From Arthrobacter sp. H5 (lineage in GTDB: Bacteria > Actinomycetota > Actinomycetes > Actinomycetales > Micrococcaceae): 33,802 nucleotides of DNA. The DNA lies in assembly GCF_000520595.1 (NCBI RefSeq), contig NZ_KI915034.1:47804-81605 (forward strand). The letters run 5' to 3'. The notes under the pieces were generated by a model. It worked only from the letters and a program-made list of their open reading frames with translations. It made no database searches and had not been told where the DNA came from. Numbering within the stretch: the first letter of the stretch is position 1; the number at the start of each line of letters is the position of its first letter. Below, one piece after another: positions 3,781 to 13,431 of this stretch. The position numbers were made by a program, and so were the translations under genes.

Positions 3781-4566
3781 TCATAACGGCGGCTGGCAGT
3801 GGGGGCAGAAGTACAGTACGCGCAGCTCCAATTCGGAGTCGCCGGTCTCGGTCCGCACCACCGGCGTTCCGCAGCGCAGGCAGCCTCGCCGGGTGCGGCC
3901 ATAGACCCAGAGCTGATCACCGCGCAGGTTGCCCGTGGTAGCCCGCTGGGAGCGGAACTTGTTGGCCTCCAGCAGCTTCTTTGACAGCTCAACCATGCGC
4001 ACCAGATTGGTGACACGGGACACCGGCGTCAGCGGGTGCACTCCGGCGAGGAAGCACAGCTCGCAGCGATAAACGTTGCCGATCCCGGCGAGGTTGCGCT
4101 GATCCAGCAGCGCGAGGCCGATGGGCCGGTACGGATCAGCCCGCAGCCGGACGAGCGCCTCCTCAGCGTCCCAGTCCGGGCCCAGCAGATCGGGTCCAAG
4201 GTATCCGACGGCGTCGTCCTCTTCGGCCTGGCGGATGACGCGGAGGAAGCCCAGCTCAAAACCGACGGCAATGGAATCAGCGGTGCCGAGAATGCACCGC
4301 GCCTTGAACGCGGGACGCCGCCATTTGCCATGTGGTGGGTAGACGTGCCAGAGGCCCTCCATCTTGAGGTGTGAATGGATACTCCACTCCGTGCCTACCC
4401 GGATGAGGAGGTGTTTGCCGCGGGAAACCACGTTCTGCACGGTTTCCCCGGTGAAATCCACTGTGGCGTAGCGGGGGACGCGGACGTCGCACCGGGTCAG
4501 GACCTTGTCCTGGAGTGCTTTGTTGAGCTCACGCGCCGCCCGCCAGACGGTATCGCCTTCAGGCAC
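3781..4566 (-). CDS. nei2: Nei/Fpg-type DNA glycosylase-lyase (endonuclease VIII-like)
   Basis: Encodes 261 residues. Removes oxidised bases and cuts the DNA backbone by beta-elimination in base excision repair. The mature N-terminus Pro2-Glu3 (V-PEGDTVWRAA) supplies the catalytic amine and the acid. The conserved Lys lies in SRGKHLLIR. The helix-two-turn-helix region contains LLDQRNLAGIGNVYRCE, and the C-terminus carries a four-Cys zinc finger (GCLRCG...FCPHC). The start must be GTG 4566 because catalytic Pro must be residue 2; the ATG further upstream is not the start. The GTG overlaps the lhr stop by 8 nt, so translation is probably coupled. Mycobacteria have the same lhr-nei neighbours (Rv3296-Rv3297), which supports the Nei2-type label. 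Confidence 0.9.
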   Translation of the reverse strand: MPEGDTVWRAARELNKALQDKVLTRCDVRVPRYATVDFTGETVQNVVSRGKHLLIRVGTEWSIHSHLKMEGLWHVYPPHGKWRRPAFKARCILGTADSIAVGFELGFLRVIRQAEEDDAVGYLGPDLLGPDWDAEEALVRLRADPYRPIGLALLDQRNLAGIGNVYRCELCFLAGVHPLTPVSRVTNLVRMVELSKKLLEANKFRSQRATTGNLRGDQLWVYGRTRRGCLRCGTPVVRTETGDSELELRVLYFCPHCQPPL

Positions 4567-7500
4567 GGATCCGCAGCCCGCGGGGAGTGGTGTAGAAGCC
4601 GGCCATTGCAAGGGCCCGGCCTACCTCCGACTCGAGGGCCGACTCACCATTGACCTTCTCGACAGCCATCTTGTCCGTGGCCCCGCGGCGGATCGCGGCG
4701 ACCAAGGCCTGCGCGGACGCCTCCAGGCTGGGTGCATCATCGGTGTAGGTGAGCATGGTTTTCCCGCCGCGCTCCACATACAGGGCAAGCTCCCCGTCCA
4801 CCAGCACCACCAATGCGCCGGCTTTGCGTCCGGGCCGGTGCCCGCCGTCGTGAGCGGGCCACGCGAGCGCGGCGCCGAAGGGATTTGCCGGGTCAGTGGC
4901 GGCAAGCGCGACGGCGGCGGGTGGCGCCTGCTGCAGCGATTCCGCACGGGCGTCGGCGCTGAAGGACCTGAGCCGGTCCACCGTCGACGGCACAGCAAAC
5001 TGGGCAGCACCCAGATGCTCAATGAAGTAGCCCCGCCGACACCGCCCCATTTCCTCCAGCCGGGACAGCACTTTGTACATCAGCCCAAACCCGCCGGGGA
5101 TACCTTCGCTGGCCACTGCTCCGCGGGTCAACACGCCGTAGCGGTCCAGTAGCAGCTCCGCTGTGGCATGCGCATGAACGGTCGTTTCGCTCTCAACGGC
5201 GGGAAGCAGGGTCCACCGCCCGGCCACCTGGGGCGGTGTGCTGCGCTGGTAGCTGCCGGCGCCGTCGTCGTTCCTTGACACGAACCGCATGCTGCTGCCC
5301 GTGAGGGACGCTCCGGGAGCTCGGCCAAGCCTGCCCAGCCGGGCGGAGCGCGCGCGGGGTGCCGGCGGGCGCTGCTTGTGCGCGGTCTTGCCACCGGCGA
5401 GGAGGGCGCGCACCGGGGTGAACGTATCATTGCCGATCCGGCCTGCCCAGACCAGGTCCCACAGAGCGTTGGTGACGGCGGAGTCGGCGGGTTGCGTATC
5501 CGACGTCAGGGATTGGACCAGCTGCCGGAAGAAGTATGCGCCGCCACCGGAGAGCAGTTCAAGCAGTTCCGCCTGCAGGGCGGAAGGTTCAAACGCCGGG
5601 TCGGGGCGCAGCGTGAGCGGTGCATTTTCGGCGAGGTGGAGCGCAATCCAGCCGTCGTTGCCGGGCAGGCTGCCGGCGCCGGACCACACCACTTCGCCGG
5701 CGGCAGTGAGTTCGTCGAGCATCGCGGGAGAATAGTTGGCCACCCGCGATCCGAGGATCAGCGGCTCCCAGGCTGACGCCGGGATCGGCACTCCCGAGAG
5801 CTGGTCAACCACCGTTGCAACGCCGTCGAGCCCGCGAAGCCCCGAACCCACATGCTGCCAGATCGGCAGGAAGCGGCCGAATGCAGCCGGATCCACTGGT
5901 TCCACCTCGTGCCGCAGCGCGGCCAGCGAGCGGCGGCGGAGCCGGCGCAGCACCTCCACATCGCACCATTCGCTGGGTGCGTGCGGGCCTATGGTTGCAG
6001 GGCGGGTGCCGTTGGGGTCCGCCGGTGCGGCTTCCGCCGGCCGGAACTCGCCCTCCACCACGCGCCCGTCGGAGGAGAGCCGCTGCAATGCGGTCACGAC
6101 GACGGCGACCCCCAGTCCCAGGCGCACTGCGGCTTCGGCGGCGGTGAAGGGCCCGTGGGTTCGGGCATACCGGCTCACGAGGTCGCCCAACGGATCGGCA
6201 ACGGGTTCGATGAACGCCAGCGGCACACCCATGGGCAGTGGAACGCCAAGAGCATCCCGGAGCCGTGCGGCATCCTCAATCGCGGCGTACCGCTCTTCCC
6301 CGGCGACGTTGACGCGCAGGGCGCGGTTGGACTTGATGAGCGTGGCAGCGAGGGTCTCCGCGTGCTCCTTCGTCGCTTGGTCGACCACCGGTGAGGCCAC
6401 CGGTGATCGACCAAGGCCGTGTTCGGCCGCGTGGAGATCCGGTTCCGCGACCTCCAGCCGCTCGCCGATTTCGACGGCGGTGAGCGGCCCGAGCAGCCGC
6501 AGCAGGTCAGCGACGCCCTCGATGCCTTTTGCCTTACGGTCCGGTGCGAGCCGCTGCAGTTCCCGCTCAGTGTCGGCGATGACCTGGGCATCGAGCAGTT
6601 CCCGCAGCTCAGCGCGGCCCAGCAGCTCATTCAGGAGTGTGGGGTCAAGCGATAGGGCCGCCGCGCGGCGCTCGGCCAGGGGTGAGTCACCCTCGTAGAG
6701 GAAGGATGCAACGTAACCGAACAGCATGGAGCGGGCAAAGGGCGAGGGCTGCTGGGTGGTAATTTCCACCATGCGCACCTCGCGGCGGTCAATCTGCCCG
6801 GCGATGTCTTTCAGGGCGGGCAGATCATAGACATCCTGCAGGCATTCGCGGACGGTCTCCAGAATGATGGGAAAGGTTGGGAACTTACGGGCCACGTCCA
6901 GCAGCTGGGCGGAACGTTGCCGCTGTTGCCACAGCGGACTCCGTTTCGTGGGATTCTGGCGCGGCAACAGCAGCGCACGGGCAGCACACTCACGGAACCG
7001 TGATGCAAACAGGGCTGAGGACCCCACCTGGGCGGTCACAATACCGTCAAGTTCCTCGGCGTCGAACAGGAAGAGTTCCGCGCCGGGAGGCTCATCCTCC
7101 ATGAGGGGTACGCGGAGCACTATGCCGTCGTCGGAGGCCATCGCGGAGCCGTCCATCCCGTACCGCTGCTCAAGCCTTGCCCCTACTGCCAAAGCCCAGG
7201 GCGCGTGGACGGGCATGCCGAACGGGCTGTGGAGGACAACCCGCCAGTCGCCCAGCTCGTCATGGAACCGCTCGATCACCAGCGTTCGGTCGTTGGGCAC
7301 AATCTCGGTGGCCTGCTGCTGGTCCCGAAGATAGGCAAGGAGGTTACCAGCAGCCCAGTCATCCAGTCCGCTCGCACGGCACCGTGCCGTTGCATCCTCG
7401 TCAGAGGCGTTGGAGAGCTCCCGGACAAAAGCGCCCACCGCCCTACCCAGTTCCACGGGCCTGCCCAGCGAATCCCCCTTCCAGAAGGGCAGCTTGCCGG

Positions 7501-9493
7501 GTTGTCCAAAGGCGGGGGACACCAGGACGCGGTCGTGGGTGATGTCCTCAATCCGCCAACTGGTGGCGCCGAGGGCAAAAACGTCACCCACCCGCGATTC
7601 GTAAACCATTTCCTCATCGAGTTCGCCGACCCGCCTACCGCCCGCCCGTGCGTCCGTCCCGGTGGCTTCCGACCCCACCAGGAACACTCCAAACAACCCG
7701 CGGTCCGGAATGGTGCCACCGGAGGTGACCGCCAGACGTTGCGCGCCGGGCCTGCCGGTGATGGTGCCCTCGACCCGATCCCAGATGATCCGCGGCCGAA
7801 GTTCCGCGAATTCGTCTGACGGGTACCGGCCCGCCAGCAGATCCAAGGTCGCCTCGAAGGCCGAACGGGGGAGTGTGGCAAAGGGGGCCGACCGCCGCAC
7901 GATGTCGAACCACTCCTCCACATCGATCGTCTCCAGTGCGACGGCCGCAACCGTTTGCTGCGCCAGAATGTCCAGCGGATTGGCTGGTATGTAGAGCGGC
8001 TCGATCTTTCCCGCAAGCATCCGCTCCACGGTCACCGCGGTGTTCACCAGGTCGCCGCGATGCTTGGGGAACAGGACACCCTGCGACACCTCGCCTACCT
8101 GATGTCCGGCCCGCCCCACCCGCTGCAGGCCGCTCGCCACCGACTGCGGCGCCTCCACCTGGACTACCAGGTCCACCGCGCCCATGTCGATACCCAATTC
8201 CAACGACGACGTCGCCACCACACAGCGCAGACGGCCGGATTTCAGGTCATCCTCGATCAGGGCACGCTGGTCTTTGGAGACGGACCCATGATGGGCTCTC
8301 GCCAGAAGCGGCTCGGCGCCTTGGGTTTGGCCCGCCTGCGCCATCATTTCGGCGGGGGTTCTTTGGGGTGGCGCGCCTGCGGTGGCCCGGAACGGCGGCA
8401 ACGAAATTCCGTTGGGCCTGGCGGCCCTAGGAACATTAAAGCCGCCTTCCTTCGGGACACCTCCGGTGCGCCCGCTCATGCCGCCTGCCGAGTCACTGGC
8501 GTTATCCGCGGCAATCCCACCGGGTCCGAAGGCTTCTTGCTCGTTGTCCGGGGAAGACCAGAGGGTTGCTGCTTCCCCGCGGTCCGCGTGGATCTCGTTG
8601 AGGCGGGCGGTCAGGCGTTCTGCAAGGCGGCGGGAGTTCGCAAAGACGATTGTGGAGTGGTTGGCCTCAATGAGGTCGACTATCTTCTCCTCCACATGCG
8701 GCCAGATGCTCGCCTGCGGAACCGGACCGCCGTCGTCGTCCGTTGCCGCCGTGCCGCCCAGCTCCGTCATGTCCTCCACCGGAACGGTGACCGTAATATC
8801 CCAGGACTTCTTCGACGGAGGAGCAACAATCTCCACCGGCGCGTTCCCGGCAAGGAAACGCGCAACCGTGTCCTTTGGCTCCACGGTGGCGGACAGCCCG
8901 ATGCGCTGGACGGGCTTGTCCAACAAAGCATCCAGCCGGGCCAGCGACACCGCCAAGTGGGCGCCGCGTTTGGTTCCTGCAACAGCGTGGACCTCATCGA
9001 CAATCACTGTGTCCACGTTGGTGAGGGTTTCCCTCGCTTTGGACGTGAGCATGAGGAACAGGGACTCGGGGGTGGTGATCAGGATGTCCGGAGGACGGCT
9101 GAGGAGAGCCCGCCGCTCGGCCTGCGATGTATCGCCCGAGCGCACTCCCACGGTGATGGATGGCGCGGGAAGATCCAACCGTTTGGCCGTTTGGGTGATA
9201 CCGATCAACGGCGAGCGCAGGTTCCGCTCCACATCAACACCGAGTGCCTTGAGCGGGGAAATGTACAGCACCCGGGTGGTCCGCTTGTCCTCTACGGGTT
9301 TGGCGATGAACCCGTCCAGCGCCCACAGGAACGCTGCAAGGGTTTTACCCGAACCGGTGGGAGCAACAACCAGCGCATTGGAGCCCGCGGCAATCGCGTT
9401 CCAGGCGCCTTCCTGCGCAGGTGTGGGCGCGCTGAATGCACCCGCGAACCATTCATGGGTGGCGGGCGTGAATTTCTCCAGCACCGACGTCAT
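4559..9493 (-). CDS. lhr: Large Lhr-family ATP-dependent DNA helicase
   Basis: Encodes about 1644 residues, a full-length bacterial Lhr (core plus long C-terminal domain). Lhr is a superfamily 2 3'-to-5' ssDNA translocase and helicase linked to DNA repair in mycobacteria. Seen in order: Q-motif region TPAQEGAWNAI (about 24-34), Walker A APTGSGKT (44-51), DEVH box (166-169), motif III LSATVEPKD, motif IV IVFANSRRLAERL, motif V SSLELGIDMGAVDLV and motif VI QRVGRAGHQ. A Gly/Ala/Pro-rich insert of about 95 residues (about 308-401) separates motif IV from the block before motif V. Residues about 1018-1047 are encoded by a palindromic repeat (separate entry). I prefer ATG 9493 (MTSVLEKFTP); an in-frame GTG at 9511 would add six residues. 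Coupled to nei by an 8-nt overlap. Confidence 0.93.
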   Translation of the reverse strand: MTSVLEKFTPATHEWFAGAFSAPTPAQEGAWNAIAAGSNALVVAPTGSGKTLAAFLWALDGFIAKPVEDKRTTRVLYISPLKALGVDVERNLRSPLIGITQTAKRLDLPAPSITVGVRSGDTSQAERRALLSRPPDILITTPESLFLMLTSKARETLTNVDTVIVDEVHAVAGTKRGAHLAVSLARLDALLDKPVQRIGLSATVEPKDTVARFLAGNAPVEIVAPPSKKSWDITVTVPVEDMTELGGTAATDDDGGPVPQASIWPHVEEKIVDLIEANHSTIVFANSRRLAERLTARLNEIHADRGEAATLWSSPDNEQEAFGPGGIAADNASDSAGGMSGRTGGVPKEGGFNVPRAARPNGISLPPFRATAGAPPQRTPAEMMAQAGQTQGAEPLLARAHHGSVSKDQRALIEDDLKSGRLRCVVATSSLELGIDMGAVDLVVQVEAPQSVASGLQRVGRAGHQVGEVSQGVLFPKHRGDLVNTAVTVERMLAGKIEPLYIPANPLDILAQQTVAAVALETIDVEEWFDIVRRSAPFATLPRSAFEATLDLLAGRYPSDEFAELRPRIIWDRVEGTITGRPGAQRLAVTSGGTIPDRGLFGVFLVGSEATGTDARAGGRRVGELDEEMVYESRVGDVFALGATSWRIEDITHDRVLVSPAFGQPGKLPFWKGDSLGRPVELGRAVGAFVRELSNASDEDATARCRASGLDDWAAGNLLAYLRDQQQATEIVPNDRTLVIERFHDELGDWRVVLHSPFGMPVHAPWALAVGARLEQRYGMDGSAMASDDGIVLRVPLMEDEPPGAELFLFDAEELDGIVTAQVGSSALFASRFRECAARALLLPRQNPTKRSPLWQQRQRSAQLLDVARKFPTFPIILETVRECLQDVYDLPALKDIAGQIDRREVRMVEITTQQPSPFARSMLFGYVASFLYEGDSPLAERRAAALSLDPTLLNELLGRAELRELLDAQVIADTERELQRLAPDRKAKGIEGVADLLRLLGPLTAVEIGERLEVAEPDLHAAEHGLGRSPVASPVVDQATKEHAETLAATLIKSNRALRVNVAGEERYAAIEDAARLRDALGVPLPMGVPLAFIEPVADPLGDLVSRYARTHGPFTAAEAAVRLGLGVAVVVTALQRLSSDGRVVEGEFRPAEAAPADPNGTRPATIGPHAPSEWCDVEVLRRLRRRSLAALRHEVEPVDPAAFGRFLPIWQHVGSGLRGLDGVATVVDQLSGVPIPASAWEPLILGSRVANYSPAMLDELTAAGEVVWSGAGSLPGNDGWIALHLAENAPLTLRPDPAFEPSALQAELLELLSGGGAYFFRQLVQSLTSDTQPADSAVTNALWDLVWAGRIGNDTFTPVRALLAGGKTAHKQRPPAPRARSARLGRLGRAPGASLTGSSMRFVSRNDDGAGSYQRSTPPQVAGRWTLLPAVESETTVHAHATAELLLDRYGVLTRGAVASEGIPGGFGLMYKVLSRLEEMGRCRRGYFIEHLGAAQFAVPSTVDRLRSFSADARAESLQQAPPAAVALAATDPANPFGAALAWPAHDGGHRPGRKAGALVVLVDGELALYVERGGKTMLTYTDDAPSLEASAQALVAAIRRGATDKMAVEKVNGESALESEVGRALAMAGFYTTPRGLRIRA
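6353..6440. repeat. REP-like palindromic element inside lhr
   Basis: An 88-bp imperfect palindrome lies within the lhr reading frame. The outer arms are GGTCTCC (6353-6359) and GTGGAGATCC (to 6440). The inner arms are CTTGGTCGACCACCGG and CCGGTGATCGACCAAG, separated by a few bases. Its left half matches the intergenic repeat at 12938-13023 in 34 of 38 positions, and the right arm also matches. The frame stays open through it and encodes about 30 residues including GRSPVASPVVDQATKE. I infer an in-frame insertion of a dispersed element, or exaptation of one. Confidence 0.7.
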
Positions 9494-9570
9494 CAATTCA
9501 TCATCTCGCACCGTTCTGACATTTTCTCAGGGCACCCTTAATGCGCGGGACAGAAACTGCCCTGGACCTC

Positions 9571-9598
9571 AGGATCGCTGTTTCGAACCGGCGATCCT
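9571..9598. promoter_or_regulatory. Inverted repeat between divergent lhr and 9697 gene
   Basis: Perfect 8-bp arms AGGATCGC (9571-9578) and GCGATCCT (9591-9598) flank a 12-nt centre containing the palindrome TTCGAA. It sits 60-80 bp upstream of lhr and about 100 bp before the divergent membrane-protein gene. There is no T-tract, so an operator is more likely than a terminator. The regulator is unknown. The rest of 9512-9696 shows nothing else clear. Confidence 0.35.
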
Positions 9599-9696
9599 AA
9601 ACCTTAGGGAAGTTTTGATGGAGGGAACCCGGCGGCGCGGGACCGTCGAGGCCACCGCGCCGCGGATTCGCACGCGGGCTGCGGTACTTTCGAACC

Positions 9697-10200
9697 ATGA
9701 GCGGCCATGTGAGCAACAACTGGGTACCGATGGCAGGCGTCGCCGTTCTGTTCACTGGAGGCGCGGTGGCGAGCCTCATCGCCGGTGAGAACACGGGCGC
9801 AGTCGCCGTGTACTTTGTGGTCAGCACTCTGGTGCTCGTGTTGCTCGCTGCGCCCTGGCTGGTGCGCAATCCGCCGGCAATCAACGCGAACACGGGCACC
9901 TACCTTGTTCTCGCCGTCGTACTGGAGCTTGGGTCGCTGCTGGGTGGTGCCATCGAATCCCTGCGCGGGCTGGGCGCCTGGGTGGTTCTGGGCATTGCCC
10001 TTGCGGTTTATGGCTGGCTTGAGCGGGGGCGTGTGATCATCACCTCGGGAGTGGTTGCGGCGATCGCCGGGGTGGGAGCCATCGCTGCGGGCCAACCGTG
10101 GCTCACTATTTCGCTTCAGCTATTTACTGCGGCGGTTTTTGCCACGGCCGCAGTCCGGTTGCGGGTGATGAGAGTCAGGCCGAAGGCTGCATCGCGCTGA
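9697..10200 (+). CDS. Hypothetical small membrane protein
   Basis: Encodes 167 residues, almost all hydrophobic, with five to six predicted membrane spans, for example GVAVLFTGGAVASLIAG, VYFVVSTLVLVLLAAPWLV, YLVLAVVLELGSLLGGAI and GAWVVLGIALAVYGWL. The C-terminal tail is basic (RLRVMRVRPKAASR), which suggests a cytoplasmic end. I recognise no family. There is no Shine-Dalgarno sequence; a TACTTT hexamer at 9685-9690 lies 6 nt before the ATG, so the message may be leaderless. It is the only plus-strand gene among minus-strand neighbours. Its last 26 bp overlap the 3' end of the lipoprotein gene on the other strand. Confidence 0.7.
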   Translation: MSGHVSNNWVPMAGVAVLFTGGAVASLIAGENTGAVAVYFVVSTLVLVLLAAPWLVRNPPAINANTGTYLVLAVVLELGSLLGGAIESLRGLGAWVVLGIALAVYGWLERGRVIITSGVVAAIAGVGAIAAGQPWLTISLQLFTAAVFATAAVRLRVMRVRPKAASR

Positions 10201-10852
10201 CGGTCATCAACACGATGCTTTCCGACGCGCAGGCCATTGATTCCTGCGCCACAATCAGCGAGTCCGTGGCTTCCGGGGGGTAGATCCGGAGCCCGGTTGC
10301 CGCTGTCAGCGAGCAGTCCCCACCGTAATTTTCCGCCCGCGTCTGCTTGAGCTCGGCAATGGCTGAGGCGCCGGGGGCGAGGAGGACCTCGGCGCCGGTA
10401 TCTCCGCGGTCGGCGGGCGCCCCTACTTGGGTACCGGAGGCATCCACAGAGGACACACCGGGGAAGCCGGACATGATGCACTTTTCGTCGGAGATGTTGG
10501 TCAGGATGAGGTTGCGGTAAACACTTCCGGCGGCCCCGCCTCCTATGGGAGATTCGACCGCACCCTCAAGCATGGCAGCGGTGCAGACGCCGTCTGCTGG
10601 CTCAGGGGTGGGTACGGGCTCGCTGGACGCGGACTCCGATGGTTCGGGTGCAGCTTCGGGCACAGCTTCGGAGGTAGGGGAAGGAGAAGGAGACGATGAC
10701 GGCGGCGCGGACAATTCACCGGACGTCGACTCCGATGGTTCCTCGGCAGATTCGGTACCCGCACCGGTTGAGCCGCACGCGGACAGGAAGACGACCGATC
10801 CGGCAAGAGCAGCGGCGGCAATCCAACGGGGCGTCTTTACACGGGGTGTCAT
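10175..10852 (-). CDS. DUF4232-type lipoprotein
   Basis: Encodes 225 residues. A short basic N-terminus and hydrophobic segment end in a lipobox with lipid-modified Cys26 (VFLSAC), so the protein should be anchored to the outer face of the cytoplasmic membrane. Next comes a long Ser/Pro/Glu-rich linker of about 65 residues. The C-terminal domain has paired cysteines (DGVCTAA..., SDEKCIMSGFPGV, GGDCSLTA, SMACASES) and the pattern SGFPGVS typical of DUF4232, a domain of unknown function common in actinobacterial envelope proteins. ATG 10852 is chosen because the signal peptide begins right after it, with AAGGG 9 nt upstream. It lies downstream of ycnI, but a strong hairpin between them suggests partly separate expression. 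Confidence 0.78.
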   Translation of the reverse strand: MTPRVKTPRWIAAAALAGSVVFLSACGSTGAGTESAEEPSESTSGELSAPPSSSPSPSPTSEAVPEAAPEPSESASSEPVPTPEPADGVCTAAMLEGAVESPIGGGAAGSVYRNLILTNISDEKCIMSGFPGVSSVDASGTQVGAPADRGDTGAEVLLAPGASAIAELKQTRAENYGGDCSLTAATGLRIYPPEATDSLIVAQESMACASESIVLMTVSAMQPSA

Positions 10853-10874
10853 AGCAACACCCTTACCCGAGGGC

Positions 10875-10924
10875 ATCCCTGCGTCAATCAGCCCGCGCGG
10901 CGAGTAGCGGATTGACGCAGGGAT
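10875..10924 (-). terminator. Strong intergenic stem-loop after ycnI
   Basis: Perfect 15-bp inverted repeat: ATCCCTGCGTCAATC (10875-10889) and GATTGACGCAGGGAT (10910-10924), with a 20-nt loop. It starts 10 nt after the ycnI stop and ends 22 nt before the lipoprotein start. No T-tract follows on the minus strand, so it may be a Rho-independent-like terminator of the weak actinobacterial type, an mRNA-stabilising stem or an attenuator. Confidence 0.6.
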
Positions 10925-10934
10925 TGTTACCTGG

Positions 10935-11654
10935 TTACGCCTTGATCTTGCGGGTGCGGAGCAGTGCAACTACGCCCGCGGCAAGACCAAGAAGGCCGGC
11001 GCCGAGCCCAACGTAACCGGCGGTTGCCGCGCCCGAAGTGTCTGTGCTCGCCGAAGCGTTCTCCAGGTCCGCAGCCTCGGCTTCGGGCTCAGCCTCAGCG
11101 CCGTGACCGCCTTCTGTATCTGCGGCCGTCAGTTCAAAGGAGGGAGCCGGTGCGTCCAGGCTGTGCGGGTCTTCGCCGCCGGCAGCAATCTCGGACCAAT
11201 CGGTCTCGCCCTCCACACAGGACTGCAGGACCGGGAAGGCGAGAGTTTCCCCGGCGCCCTCGGGAAGCTGCACTGAAAGGTCAAACTGCTGCAGGTAGCC
11301 GTCCTCCATAGGCGTTTCGGCCGTGTAGACGATCTGGCCGACGCGCTCGGTGACACTCGATCCGTTATCGAGTGTCATGGGCTCATCCAGTGTCTCGGTG
11401 ACCTTCTCCACGTTCCAGCCTGGAACAATCTCAGGTTTGGCATCGATCATGCCGTCGGGCAGGGAGATGGTGATCTTGTTGGTGGGCGAACCGTCACAGT
11501 CATGAGAAAAGCCGAAGGTCAGCAAGGAGAACGCACCTTCGGCCGTGGTGTCCGGTTTGACTGTGACGTGCGCTGCCGCTCCGGCCAGACCAAGTCCCAT
11601 CAGACCGGTGGTCGCTGCGGCTACGGTCAAGGTGCGGCGAACTGAGTTTTTCAT
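10935..11654 (-). CDS. ycnI: YcnI-family copper-binding membrane-anchored protein (DUF1775)
   Basis: Encodes 239 residues. YcnI-type proteins bind copper(II) outside the cell through a His at the mature N-terminus and probably act in copper homeostasis or delivery. Here a signal peptide of 28 residues ends in GAAA, directly followed by His29 (AHVTVKPD), the expected metal ligand. The DUF1775 body spans about 29-175 (FSHDCDGSPTNKITISLPDG, PGWNVEKVTE, AFPVLQSC). A Glu/Ala/His-rich linker (GGHGAEAEPEAEAADLE) leads to one C-terminal membrane span (YVGLGAGLLGLAAGVVALL) and a basic tail, the usual surface-anchored layout. The upstream neighbour encodes a His-rich membrane protein, which fits a copper unit. 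Start ATG 11654; GAGAGG lies 12 nt upstream. Confidence 0.9.
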   Translation of the reverse strand: MKNSVRRTLTVAAATTGLMGLGLAGAAAHVTVKPDTTAEGAFSLLTFGFSHDCDGSPTNKITISLPDGMIDAKPEIVPGWNVEKVTETLDEPMTLDNGSSVTERVGQIVYTAETPMEDGYLQQFDLSVQLPEGAGETLAFPVLQSCVEGETDWSEIAAGGEDPHSLDAPAPSFELTAADTEGGHGAEAEPEAEAADLENASASTDTSGAATAGYVGLGAGLLGLAAGVVALLRTRKIKA

Positions 11655-11677
11655 GGTGATTTCTTACCTCTCAAAGG

Positions 11678-11696
11678 TGCTGCCGCTTGGGCAGCA
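11678..11696 (-). other. Hairpin in ycnI leader
   Basis: Arms TGCTGCC (11678-11684) and GGCAGCA (11690-11696) form a perfect 7-bp stem with a 5-nt loop, located just before the ycnI ribosome-binding region and 50 nt after the upstream gene's stop. It could protect or pause the message. No regulatory ligand is evident. Confidence 0.35.
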
Positions 11697-11745
11697 GAAA
11701 TACGGGAGCGCGGAAGAGCGCATGGCGGGATGCCGGGGGATTGTG

Positions 11746-12351
11746 TCAGAGAGAGGCTGTAGCGGGCGGACCGCGGAGGGTGGGCACCACCAGGACAGGA
11801 TGCCGGTAACTGGGCCGTGAAATCGTGCGAAAACGAGGGAGTGGTGTCTGCGGGAACTGGGCAGCGAGCCCTGGCAGCGCGAAGAGCGGACGCAGCCACT
11901 GAACTGTCAGGACCAGAGCCGCTTCACCCCGGTGAAGCATGAGGGCGGTGATAACGACGGCGGCAGCATGGGCTGCGAGCATCAGCGCACCGTCGGGTGC
12001 CGCACCAGCATGTGCATGCTCCAAACCCGTGGGAGCGCAGTGAACCTGTTGCATGCCGTAGTGGCCACCCGGTGCCGGGAGGCAGGCCGTCGTCGTCGTG
12101 AGTGTGTTGAAGGCCTGGTGGAGAACAAATTGACCGATCCCGAGGATGCCCAGCACAGCGGGGAGGGAGAGCTTCCGCTGGGCCGCAACAGTGACCGCTA
12201 GGAGGGTCGCCGCGGCGAGCGCGGCGAGAATCAGCAGGCCGGGCAACTGGCCTCCACCGGCAAGGTGGGCGCCGGTTGCGAGGGACAGCACGACGACGGC
12301 GGTGGCGGACGCGCGGAGTATCCGCGCAGTCGTTCCCAAACCGGTCATCAT
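11746..12351 (-). CDS. Hypothetical His-rich membrane protein upstream of ycnI
   Basis: Encodes 201 residues with about four to five membrane spans: ASATAVVVLSLATGAHLAGG, LPGLLILAALAAATLLAVTV, SLPAVLGILGIGQFVLHQAF and ALMLAAHAAAVVITALML. A loop in the middle is rich in potential metal ligands (HYGMQQVHC followed by GLEHAHAGA), and the third span ends in FVLHQAF. A start at ATG 12351 or the adjacent ATG 12348 is set by a strong GGAGGAG. I recognise no named family. The spacing to ycnI (91 bp) and the His/Met/Cys-rich loop suggest a copper-related partner of YcnI; this is inference from position and composition. The C-terminus is Pro/Arg-rich. Confidence 0.72.
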   Translation of the reverse strand: MMTGLGTTARILRASATAVVVLSLATGAHLAGGGQLPGLLILAALAAATLLAVTVAAQRKLSLPAVLGILGIGQFVLHQAFNTLTTTTACLPAPGGHYGMQQVHCAPTGLEHAHAGAAPDGALMLAAHAAAVVITALMLHRGEAALVLTVQWLRPLFALPGLAAQFPQTPLPRFRTISRPSYRHPVLVVPTLRGPPATASL

Positions 12352-12444
12352 TTCTCCTCCACCCGCGCGTGATCTCCACCAAGTGTAGAGAATCCACAAC
12401 GCTCACACTGTATTCGCAGCCGGCCGTGCTTCGGCTCGGTCTGC

Positions 12445-12912
12445 TCACTCGTGATGATAGGGGCGGTGCCCTGCAATTTCCTGGGAGCGGTACAGCTGTT
12501 CGGCCAGAATGAGGCGCACCAGTTGGTGGGGAAAGACAAGCGGAGAGAGGGACCAGACCAGGTCCGCCCGTGCGTGGACTGCCTGGTTGACGCCGTAGGC
12601 GCCGCCGATGATCACCGTGATGGTTCTGGCGCTATCCAGCGGCTGCTGCAGCTTTGCGGCGAGACCCGGTGAGTCGAGGGCTTTGCCCCGCTCATCAAGC
12701 AGGATGACGTAATCATTGCCGTGCTTACCCGCCAGCCGGTCGAGGAGGCGGCCGGATTCCTCGTCCCGCGCAGCGTCTCCCTCGCGGGCGGAATGGGCGA
12801 TCAGCTGCCAGGAGAGGTCAAACGGCTTCTTGAGCCGCTTCTCGTAGCGGGCAATGCCCTCGGCCACCCAGGATTCGTGCTTTCTTCCGACAGCCAGCGC
12901 TCGCAATGCCAT
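12445..12912 (-). CDS. rlmH: 23S rRNA pseudouridine(1915)-N3-methyltransferase RlmH
   Basis: Encodes 155 residues, the normal size for this SPOUT-class enzyme, which methylates N3 of pseudouridine 1915 in helix 69 of 23S rRNA using S-adenosylmethionine. Clear family features are the N-terminal LRALAVGRKHESWVAEGIARYEKRL, the central VILLDERGKALDSPGLAAKL, the knot motif IIGGAYGV, and the C-terminal signature HQLVRLILAEQLYRSQEIAGHRPYHHE. The start is ATG 12912. No good Shine-Dalgarno sequence is visible. It stands alone, 94 bp upstream of the copper-unit gene, with a palindromic repeat on its 5' side. Confidence 0.95.
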   Translation of the reverse strand: MALRALAVGRKHESWVAEGIARYEKRLKKPFDLSWQLIAHSAREGDAARDEESGRLLDRLAGKHGNDYVILLDERGKALDSPGLAAKLQQPLDSARTITVIIGGAYGVNQAVHARADLVWSLSPLVFPHQLVRLILAEQLYRSQEIAGHRPYHHE

Positions 12913-12937
12913 CCGGCAAGGCTATCGGGTTGCGCTG

Positions 12938-13023
12938 GGTCTCCACGCGCTCGTTCCTCGCTTGGTCGACCACCGCCAACCTCCCGGTGGTCGACCAAGG
13001 CCCGCCAGGGCCGCGTGGAGACC
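12938..13023. repeat. REP-like palindromic element, intergenic copy
   Basis: An 86-bp nested palindrome fills the gap between rlmH and the SnoaL-like gene. Outer arms are GGTCTCCACGCG (12938-12949) and CGCGTGGAGACC (13012-13023), perfect over 12 bp. Inner arms are CTTGGTCGACCACCG (12961-12975) and CGGTGGTCGACCAAG (12985-12999), perfect over 15 bp with a 9-nt loop. It is close kin to the element inside lhr at 6353-6440. Two copies in one window point to a dispersed repeat family. Confidence 0.8.
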
Positions 13024-13026
13024 AGC

Positions 13027-13431
13027 CTACGCCCCCAGTTGCTTGAGCAGGCCTGCCTCGTCCGTGGAGCCCCAACGTTCGACGATGAGCCCGTTTTCGA
13101 AGCGCGCCACCTGAATGCCGCGCACAGCAATCCGCGTGCCCGTGGGTTCGATGCTCTGGAACTCGCCATCGTGGGTGCCGGTGATGGTGAGTACCACGGT
13201 GACGTGCTCATCATCTGCCACCAGGGCCTCGGTATTCAGTGCCGCATCGGGGAAACCGGCAAGGAACTGCACCCAGAAATCCTGAATGCCGCGGACACCC
13301 GGTGCCTGGGCTGGTGCTGGATCATGATCAACCACGTCTTCGGCGAAGACCTCGCCGAAGCGATCCACTTCGCGGTCTGCAATCAGCTGACCGAGCTTTT
13401 CCTGAGCCTGCATGTTCTGTTCGCGTGACAT
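13027..13431 (-). CDS. SnoaL-like / ester cyclase family protein
   Basis: Encodes 134 residues with the NTF2-like fold pattern of SnoaL-type proteins: an N-terminal helix, FAEDVVDHDPAPAQAPGVRGIQDFWVQFLAGFPDAAL, then strands VTVVLTITGTHDGEF, GTRIAVRGIQVARFENGLIVERWGSTDEAGLLKQLG. The D-H-D-P motif and the I-x-V-RFENGLIVE-W strand are the typical marks of this family. Many members are small-molecule hydratases or cyclases, or have no known substrate; no reaction can be assigned here. ATG 13431 follows AGGGAG at 7 nt. A near-palindromic operator lies directly upstream, so it is probably a regulated single gene. Confidence 0.82.
   Translation of the reverse strand: MSREQNMQAQEKLGQLIADREVDRFGEVFAEDVVDHDPAPAQAPGVRGIQDFWVQFLAGFPDAALNTEALVADDEHVTVVLTITGTHDGEFQSIEPTGTRIAVRGIQVARFENGLIVERWGSTDEAGLLKQLGA

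Follow-up and report, generated by a model that had tools for sequence, protein, structure and literature searches.

An in-frame dimer of a CCGGTG-tagged REP-type repeat in the lhr gene of Arthrobacter sp. H5

Our findings show that the 88-bp palindrome inside lhr of Arthrobacter sp. H5 (genome G000; 4.33 Mb in 104 contigs) is a dimer of a REP/REPIN-type repeat family. The explanation that in our view very probably holds overall is a mobile REP-type family, one dimer of which sits in frame in lhr and which is kept in tolerant loops. The window analysed is a stretch of 33,802 nt (contig C72, positions 47804-81605) in which lhr, coding for a large helicase-related protein of 1650 aa, occupies 4559-9511 on the minus strand. 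Its REPIN-like dimer (6353-6440, with no strand assigned) holds two hairpin units with their tags inward, a 39-nt unit of the G/C type that is sense to lhr (6353-6391, minus strand; PVVDQATKEHAET) and a 40-nt unit of the A/T type that is antisense to it (6400-6439, plus strand; DLHAAEHGLGRSP). A second dimer of 86 bp, equally unassigned to a strand, is intergenic (12938-13023). Both elements are real and lie where the initial annotation had placed them, and its description of nested palindromes with near-identical left halves stands up as well: the left halves match at 90% over 39 nt (the right halves at 76% over 49 nt, flank included) and the plus strands fold at -55.8 (lhr element) and -59.0 kcal/mol (second dimer). 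Each element consists of two inverted unit copies of about 40 nt, joined head-to-head and tag to tag, and the dimer ends are near-perfect inverted repeats (GGTCTCCACGCG/CGCGTGGAGACC). The second dimer lies 3 bp past the stop codon of a SnoaL-like gene (13027-13431) and 25 bp ahead of where a downstream SPOUT methyltransferase gene starts (12445-12912), which we take to be rlmH; both genes are on the minus strand. A plus-strand open reading frame across this dimer (12721-13428; cluster C72:60741) passed our codon score without a Pfam match and was rejected, as it also overlaps two opposite-strand genes that have Pfam matches.

Other genomic copies of the element are plentiful. Blastn with the lhr element and a few flanking bases returned 87 matched pieces from G000 at E<=10, some of them one place counted on both strands; a half-unit profile gave 110 matches on the G000 stretches that were fetched, and a covariance model of the half unit, built from 38 units with the two lhr units among them, found 94 units at E<=0.05. 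These group into 65 clusters, namely 24 with inverted units, four same-orientation pairs and 37 single units, and tandem partial copies are present in many arrays. TTGGTCGACCA occurs 37 times as opposed to six times for its reversed control. The unit consensus reads CCGGTGRTCGACCAA, apical hairpin, GCGTGGAGAYC; that is, a 5' tag (usually CCGGTG) is followed by an imperfect hairpin, GRTC-GA-CCA...TGG-A-GAYC, whose apical stem varies, over a length of 39-42 nt, many units being exactly 39 or 42 nt long. The tag is CCGGTG in 49 of 53 full units of G000 (CCGGGG or CCGGCG in the other four) and in all 54 full units from two further genomes, G066 and G063. Units of about 40 nt in 94 copies agree with what is called a REP (a short palindrome of roughly 20-40 nt in many copies, mostly between genes), since only eight of the 65 clusters pass a two-flank in-gene score, calls that come from the codon score on both flanks rather than from annotation and with gene ends partly resolved; the 24 inverted clusters agree with what is called a REPIN (inverted REP pairs). 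The GTAG or CGTC at one end that marks the GTAG/CGTC superfamily is missing from the G000 repeat.

The hairpin is supported by covariation, two of five measures excepted. Using a structure that had been chosen by reading the very units then scored, 91.0% of cells are paired versus 76.8% after shuffling and the covariation score is 0.348 versus 0.126, values that none of 500 shuffles reached. The two exceptions are pairs with changes on both sides (6 versus 5.0 in shuffles, reached by 96 of 500) and further pair types (11 versus 11.9, reached by 469 of 500), which show no excess; of the apical pairs, two do not form in 13 and 14 of the 38 units. The outer R-Y pair alternates between A-T (35) and G-C (30), with two mixed cases among the 67 pattern-fitting matches of the 110 in G000, and is Watson-Crick in 54 of 54 full units of G066 and G063; the lhr dimer combines one A-T unit with one G-C unit.

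The lhr frame stays open across the palindrome, as had been proposed, and the REP supplies 29 codons of it (6353-6439, minus strand) for the peptide DLHAAEHGLGRSPVASPVVDQATKEHAET. Of the roughly 30 residues placed at 1018-1047 by the initial annotation, the size is borne out by these 29 whole codons and the position shifts to 1025-1053 of the 1650-aa frame if numbering starts at the GTG at 9511; with the ATG at residue 7 as the start it becomes 1019-1047, close to the earlier figure. The insert is absent from the Lhr of the nearest relatives: the distance between the anchors LLGPL and NRALRV is 108 nt in the seven nearest genus relatives (G002, G004, G018, G022, G023, G025, G034) versus 186 nt in G000. 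Among named Lhr loci the closest ones come from Arthrobacter, which makes the organism a member of the Micrococcaceae and of Arthrobacter broadly taken. With copies elsewhere and relatives that lack the segment, the overall interpretation of a protein-coding REP-like palindrome in lhr has thus come through. Across the genus, the loop between the anchors measures 108-333 nt in 29 rows (G000 plus 28 relatives; those of 50 given that passed the anchor-motif filter) and the longer loops of other species look Ala/Pro/Asp-rich. Since the net gain over the seven nearest relatives is 26 aa, though the REP encodes 29, the element cannot be regarded as cleanly inserted at a fixed site.

As for its place in the protein, the best match to PF23236 (WH2_Lhr) covers profile positions 1-49 at Lhr residues 971-1019 and has a second stretch besides, so winged-helix domain 2 is split in the G000 protein. 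PDB 7LHL is matched on both sides of the insert, the stretch that corresponds to the insert region being chain residues 941-953. In an AlphaFold2 model of residues 890-1215 (53 sequences, mean pLDDT 82.1) a helix at 1012-1017 precedes the insert and another at 1045-1060 starts inside its last nine residues; block-mean pLDDT along the insert is 68/55/77 compared to about 97 alongside. As modelled, the insert is mostly a low-confidence loop or turn inside winged-helix domain 2.

lhr is not the only such host in G000. Further internal in-frame copies occur in gcvP (14 aa), acs (14 aa plus a degenerate copy) and xfp (13 aa) and in an XdhC-like, a GH32 and a glycosyltransferase gene. These seven hosts derive from the eight scoring clusters minus C72:60741 and C28:147521 (the latter set aside on low codon scores) plus the glycosyltransferase, which was added by hand, as its cluster failed the two-flank score and its N-terminal part is without Pfam support. 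Comparison with orthologues supports four of them (lhr, gcvP, acs, xfp), judged on sequence, and leaves the other three as in frame. In each of the four, the element is in frame, the host genes are unrelated and the orthologues lack it, which is how Rickettsia-type elements are recognised. No REP peptide was seen in gcvP, acs or xfp among the rows from 13 genus relatives aligned for each, one xfp row (G009) being masked at that place and some rows being possible paralogues (acs rows G001 and G011 at 57% identity; xfp rows G005, G008 and G010 at 65%). Net gains over relatives amount to 5-11 aa for the 14-aa REP in gcvP (7 over G002, 10 over G004), 21-27 aa in acs and 1-8 aa for the 13-aa REP in xfp (1 over G004). 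They can fall below the REP length because relatives carry loop residues of their own there, which suggests that the loops are variable and that the REP partly replaces native sequence; for the small gains in gcvP and xfp, no clean empty site is seen among the relatives, and either native residues were lost or the loops drifted. Comparison with PDB entries shows no clean insertion for the GH32 and XdhC-like genes, which are classed as in-frame only (in the GH32 gene, G000 C83:72965-73105, two REP units sit at the expected start of a partly matched C-terminal domain). Several other candidates were not retained. Frames for dapA, an M24 peptidase and a biotin carboxylase, read by eye, have REPs only upstream of the recognisable part. 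In argH (named by Pfam) the REP possibly lies only before the start, and in a GH1 glucosidase and an ABC transporter gene it sits at the 3' end. All six are uncounted.

If the units are translated, the way in which they are read ought to be constrained, and this is what we see. Among 34 full in-gene units, 18 are read in sense-0, seven in sense-1, four in anti-0, five in anti-1 and none in sense-2 or anti-2, so uniform phase use is rejected (chi-square p 2e-7; units within one gene are not independent). The 34 include two full lhr units of G066, one of them weak (E 0.024), and exclude a further strong one that misses the full-length rule by one base. All 107 full units are stop-free in sense-0; in sense-2 a stop occurs in 26 of 53 (G000) and 17 of 54 (G066 plus G063); anti-2 is nearly always open (stops in 1 of 53 and 0 of 54) yet unused, and its peptide contains Trp. 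Lengths of single units point the same way, being divisible by three in 13 of 14 cases in genes versus 32 of 55 outside (one-sided Fisher p 0.012), or 4 of 4 versus 17 of 33 for G000 alone. The phase bias is strong, as would be expected if the peptides are translated and filtered.

Beyond G000, no units at E<=0.05 were found in 37 other genomes of the genus, with up to 150 first-look candidates scored per genome. In a scan of 149 genomes of the taxonomic family (44 candidates per genome and stricter filters, so counts are lower bounds) the covariance model matched seven genomes from five of 32 genera: G000, G063, G066, G154, G170, G114 and G196. From G066 and G063, which represent two genera other than that of G000, we sampled a subset of the matches, 40 stretches (26 and 14, respectively) with 48 clusters, in which in-gene cases passed the same codon score as in G000 and hosts were named by NCBIfam and Pfam. 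Above the curated cut-offs, hosts are hrpA, smc and ileS in G066 and ileS (two sites), purL, treY and gcvP in G063; below the NCBIfam cut-off, mostly because the stretch is cut, are mfd, lhr, an acyl-CoA-ligase fusion, an E2 acyltransferase and a TPP enzyme in G066 and smc in G063. In the E2 acyltransferase and the TPP enzyme the insert falls between Pfam domains; a thioesterase-like and an alpha/beta-hydrolase host of G063 were named by Pfam, the insert of the latter being just before the domain and so near the N-terminus. In G063, REP copies also lie at a gene end just before gatB (locus L339, C14), an initial candidate that was dropped before the phase count because of this position.

Several of these hosts recur at the same loop: lhr in G000 and G066, gcvP in G000 and G063, and smc and ileS in G066 and G063, with the smc insert read in different phases in the two genomes. 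Four shared host pairs compare with 0.06 expected from a length-weighted simulated null and 0.17 with squared lengths (P for at least four, 7e-7 or 3e-5), a null that is post hoc, assumes a length distribution and ignores permissive loops. In an Lhr tree of 70 rows, made by a quick method and with several long branches including that of G063, G000 groups with eight insert-free rows of its own genus (support 100), and G066 and G063 fall outside the 34-row clade that holds this genus (99). Mapped onto this tree, the repeat, henceforth family A, needs five changes, at least four of them forced by starred branches, and so was gained several times or lost many times. Four of the seven genomes (G154, G170, G114, G196; one to nine scored copies each) match unbroken through the lhr loop. 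In lhr of G063 (L395), a stretch of 176 aa stands against 66 or fewer in G000; it is without family A and has Gly-Ser-Ala repeats as well as another palindrome (GGTAGCCCGTTGCAAGGGGCTACC) whose pattern was not found in 14 other G063 stretches. By blastn, the lhr dimer had no match in plasmids nor the second dimer in phages; a 16-nt pattern present in 47 viral contigs was in no case accompanied by a unit at E<=1e-4 and was taken as chance.

The same Lhr loop also holds a different, shorter repeat in other lineages. In Pseudarthrobacter albicanus it contains CCGGTGGTTGAGCCTGTCGAAACC in frame, read as PVVEPVET, and variants of it are in the same loop of Pseudarthrobacter sp. GA104 and Arthrobacter sp. 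Soil762 (loci L135, L137 and L147 for this family B). Allowing up to three mismatches to a 22-nt core, Soil762 has eight copies in 250.8 kb (two in lhr, six elsewhere), P. albicanus two in 50.7 kb (both in lhr) and GA104 one, in lhr, in 400 kb sampled of 4.77 Mb, where a stricter pattern gave none; the reversed control core gave none in all three. The Soil762 copies show the A-T/G-C exchange known from family A, and the tag and outer stem common to both families are seen directly, from which we infer that A and B may be one superfamily. A tentative extension of this, which we put forward as doubtful rather than probable, is that an undescribed actinobacterial CCGGTG REP superfamily made up of two or more families, A and B among them, inserts itself again and again, each time independently, into the same loops of Lhr, GcvP, SMC and IleS across genera, is read in a preferred phase (P-V-V-[DE]...V-E-T) and would thereby keep supplying proteins with new linkers, perhaps with a target preference for these loops.

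We know of no enzyme for the CCGGTG REP family. A REP-associated tyrosine transposase (RAYT), which the initial annotation had suggested might accompany the element, did not turn up: with PF01797, G000 has no match over the cut-off (the best, at 12.1 bits, falls over a BPD_transp_1 permease gene and was rejected) and there is no Y1 transposase at E<=0.01 in the 38 genus genomes, G000 included. Of the genomes that carry the REP, seven in all, G154 alone has a TnpA above the PF01797 cut-off, and G066 has an IS605-type locus (L234, C12) with an 18.1-bit TnpA remnant beside TnpB (OrfB_IS605); no REP at E<=1 occurs within the 3 kb fetched around either TnpA locus. According to the available part of one report, PF01797 covers RAYTs only in part (PMC6006769), so absence by this profile counts for little. 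We suppose that a small, non-autonomous and mobile element underlies the spread of the family, probably moving as a single-stranded hairpin that would have served as substrate for an HUH/Y1-type enzyme, which may now be lost, diverged or supplied in trans. Such single-stranded DNA transposition is the mechanism we rank first, while giving it a little less than an even chance. In the accessible sections of a study on E. coli, REPs are described as a 5' tetranucleotide plus an imperfect hairpin with a conserved mismatch that TnpAREP needs for activity; the GTAG tag and the bulge matter there, and other groups tolerate tag changes (PMC8266576). A tag plus an imperfect hairpin with conserved mismatches is what our family resembles by analogy, albeit with a different tag and stem.

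Alternatively, recombination or break repair could copy REPs into breaks or between loops, replacing native residues and without a dedicated transposase. Net gains below REP length in gcvP, lhr and xfp, the lack of a RAYT by PF01797 and tandem partial copies in many arrays speak for this; a tag with an imperfect hairpin, however, is just what TnpAREP reads in E. coli (PMC8266576, available part), and the spread between genera is patchy, so to our minds this route is unlikely. Less likely still is a MITE-type element, in which the dimer would be the mobile unit and be moved through its ends (GGTCTCCACGCG/CGCGTGGAGACC) by the DDE-type transposase of another element: near-perfect inverted as the ends are, single half units make up 37 of 65 clusters and same-orientation pairs another four, and what is conserved is the tagged hairpin together with its A-T/G-C exchange. 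We see equally little prospect for domestication, that is, an lhr insert kept for a function such as a DNA-contacting loop or a translation-slowing mRNA hairpin. Recurrence in lhr, gcvP, smc and ileS loops and a modelled insert that runs into a helix of the winged-helix domain would fit with it, but even where this REP is missing the loop differs in length and sequence among members of the genus, and permissive loops account for the recurrence without function. That there was no insertion at all, and a loop hypervariable in the genus merely diverged or expanded natively to resemble the repeat, is hardly credible and already refuted by whole-unit matches elsewhere in G000; the 88 bp hold two complete tagged units (59.7 and 54.6 bits in the family covariance model) and blastn finds other genomic places independently of that model.

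Returning to mobile REPs in tolerant loops, genic insertions would survive only where the loop is exposed and tolerant, the frame is kept and the peptide is hydrophilic. The unit may be preadapted to genic life, with sense-0 stop-free in 107 full units and many units of 39 or 42 nt. The loop in Lhr winged-helix domain 2 would be such a tolerant place, and this would explain two REP families there in separate lineages.

Intragenic REPs as such are in print for many species. The accessible part of the work by Di Nocera et al. (2013) on GTAG/CGTC REPs describes short palindromes, often head-to-head dimers and some of them in frame, with inserts of 20-30 aa making up over half of the total, frequent hosts among genes for DNA synthesis and repair, and different REPs at about the same site in recB of two Xanthomonas species; its phylum lists, as available, are without Actinobacteria, and for M. 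tuberculosis it mentions REP-like sequences without conserved tags (PMC3733652). Our elements share with these the short in-frame palindromes and the dimers and differ from them by the CCGGTG tag and a host from the Actinomycetota. Rickettsia palindromic elements, too, are in frame within unrelated genes, as one partly available source has it, and are about 150 bp long (PMC10969869), unlike the unit of 39-42 nt here, a comparison made by description. The suggestion in the initial annotation of a Rickettsia precedent that is rarely reported in actinobacteria therefore needs amending: absence of the phylum from the available lists (PMC3733652) agrees with it, but intragenic REPs are known well beyond Rickettsia. 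The inverted REP pairs are shared with REPINs of RAYT systems (PMC3116915, in its accessible part), in contrast to which there is no RAYT by PF01797 here, and in-frame REPs inside tnpAREP genes, as the available text describes them (PMC6006769), likewise keep the frame, whereas the hosts here are housekeeping and repair genes. A RepRanger table, as far as its accessible part goes, includes Arthrobacter livingstonensis (PMC12306157), and among the matches listed from open-licence literature there is no description of the CCGGTG family or of REPs in Lhr. What is new, then, is the CCGGTG family, the phylum and the recurrence at the same loops across genera. Protein-coding palindromes are thereby extended to Actinomycetota by a family whose tag differs and for which no transposase has turned up as yet. 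Insertions into matching loops of matching proteins in separate lineages amount to natural replicates, with which one can ask whether insertions are merely tolerated, or targeted or useful, and which bacterial protein loops accept foreign peptides.

Two minor observations concern other repeats. At G000 C22:15423-17289 (L115), a tandem duplication of about 0.9 kb lies beside an N run and has partial REP copies at its junctions; it is either an assembly artefact or a REP-mediated duplication. Within the window, an imperfect 40-nt direct repeat (78%) is present at 10620-10755 in a gene for a DUF4232 protein.
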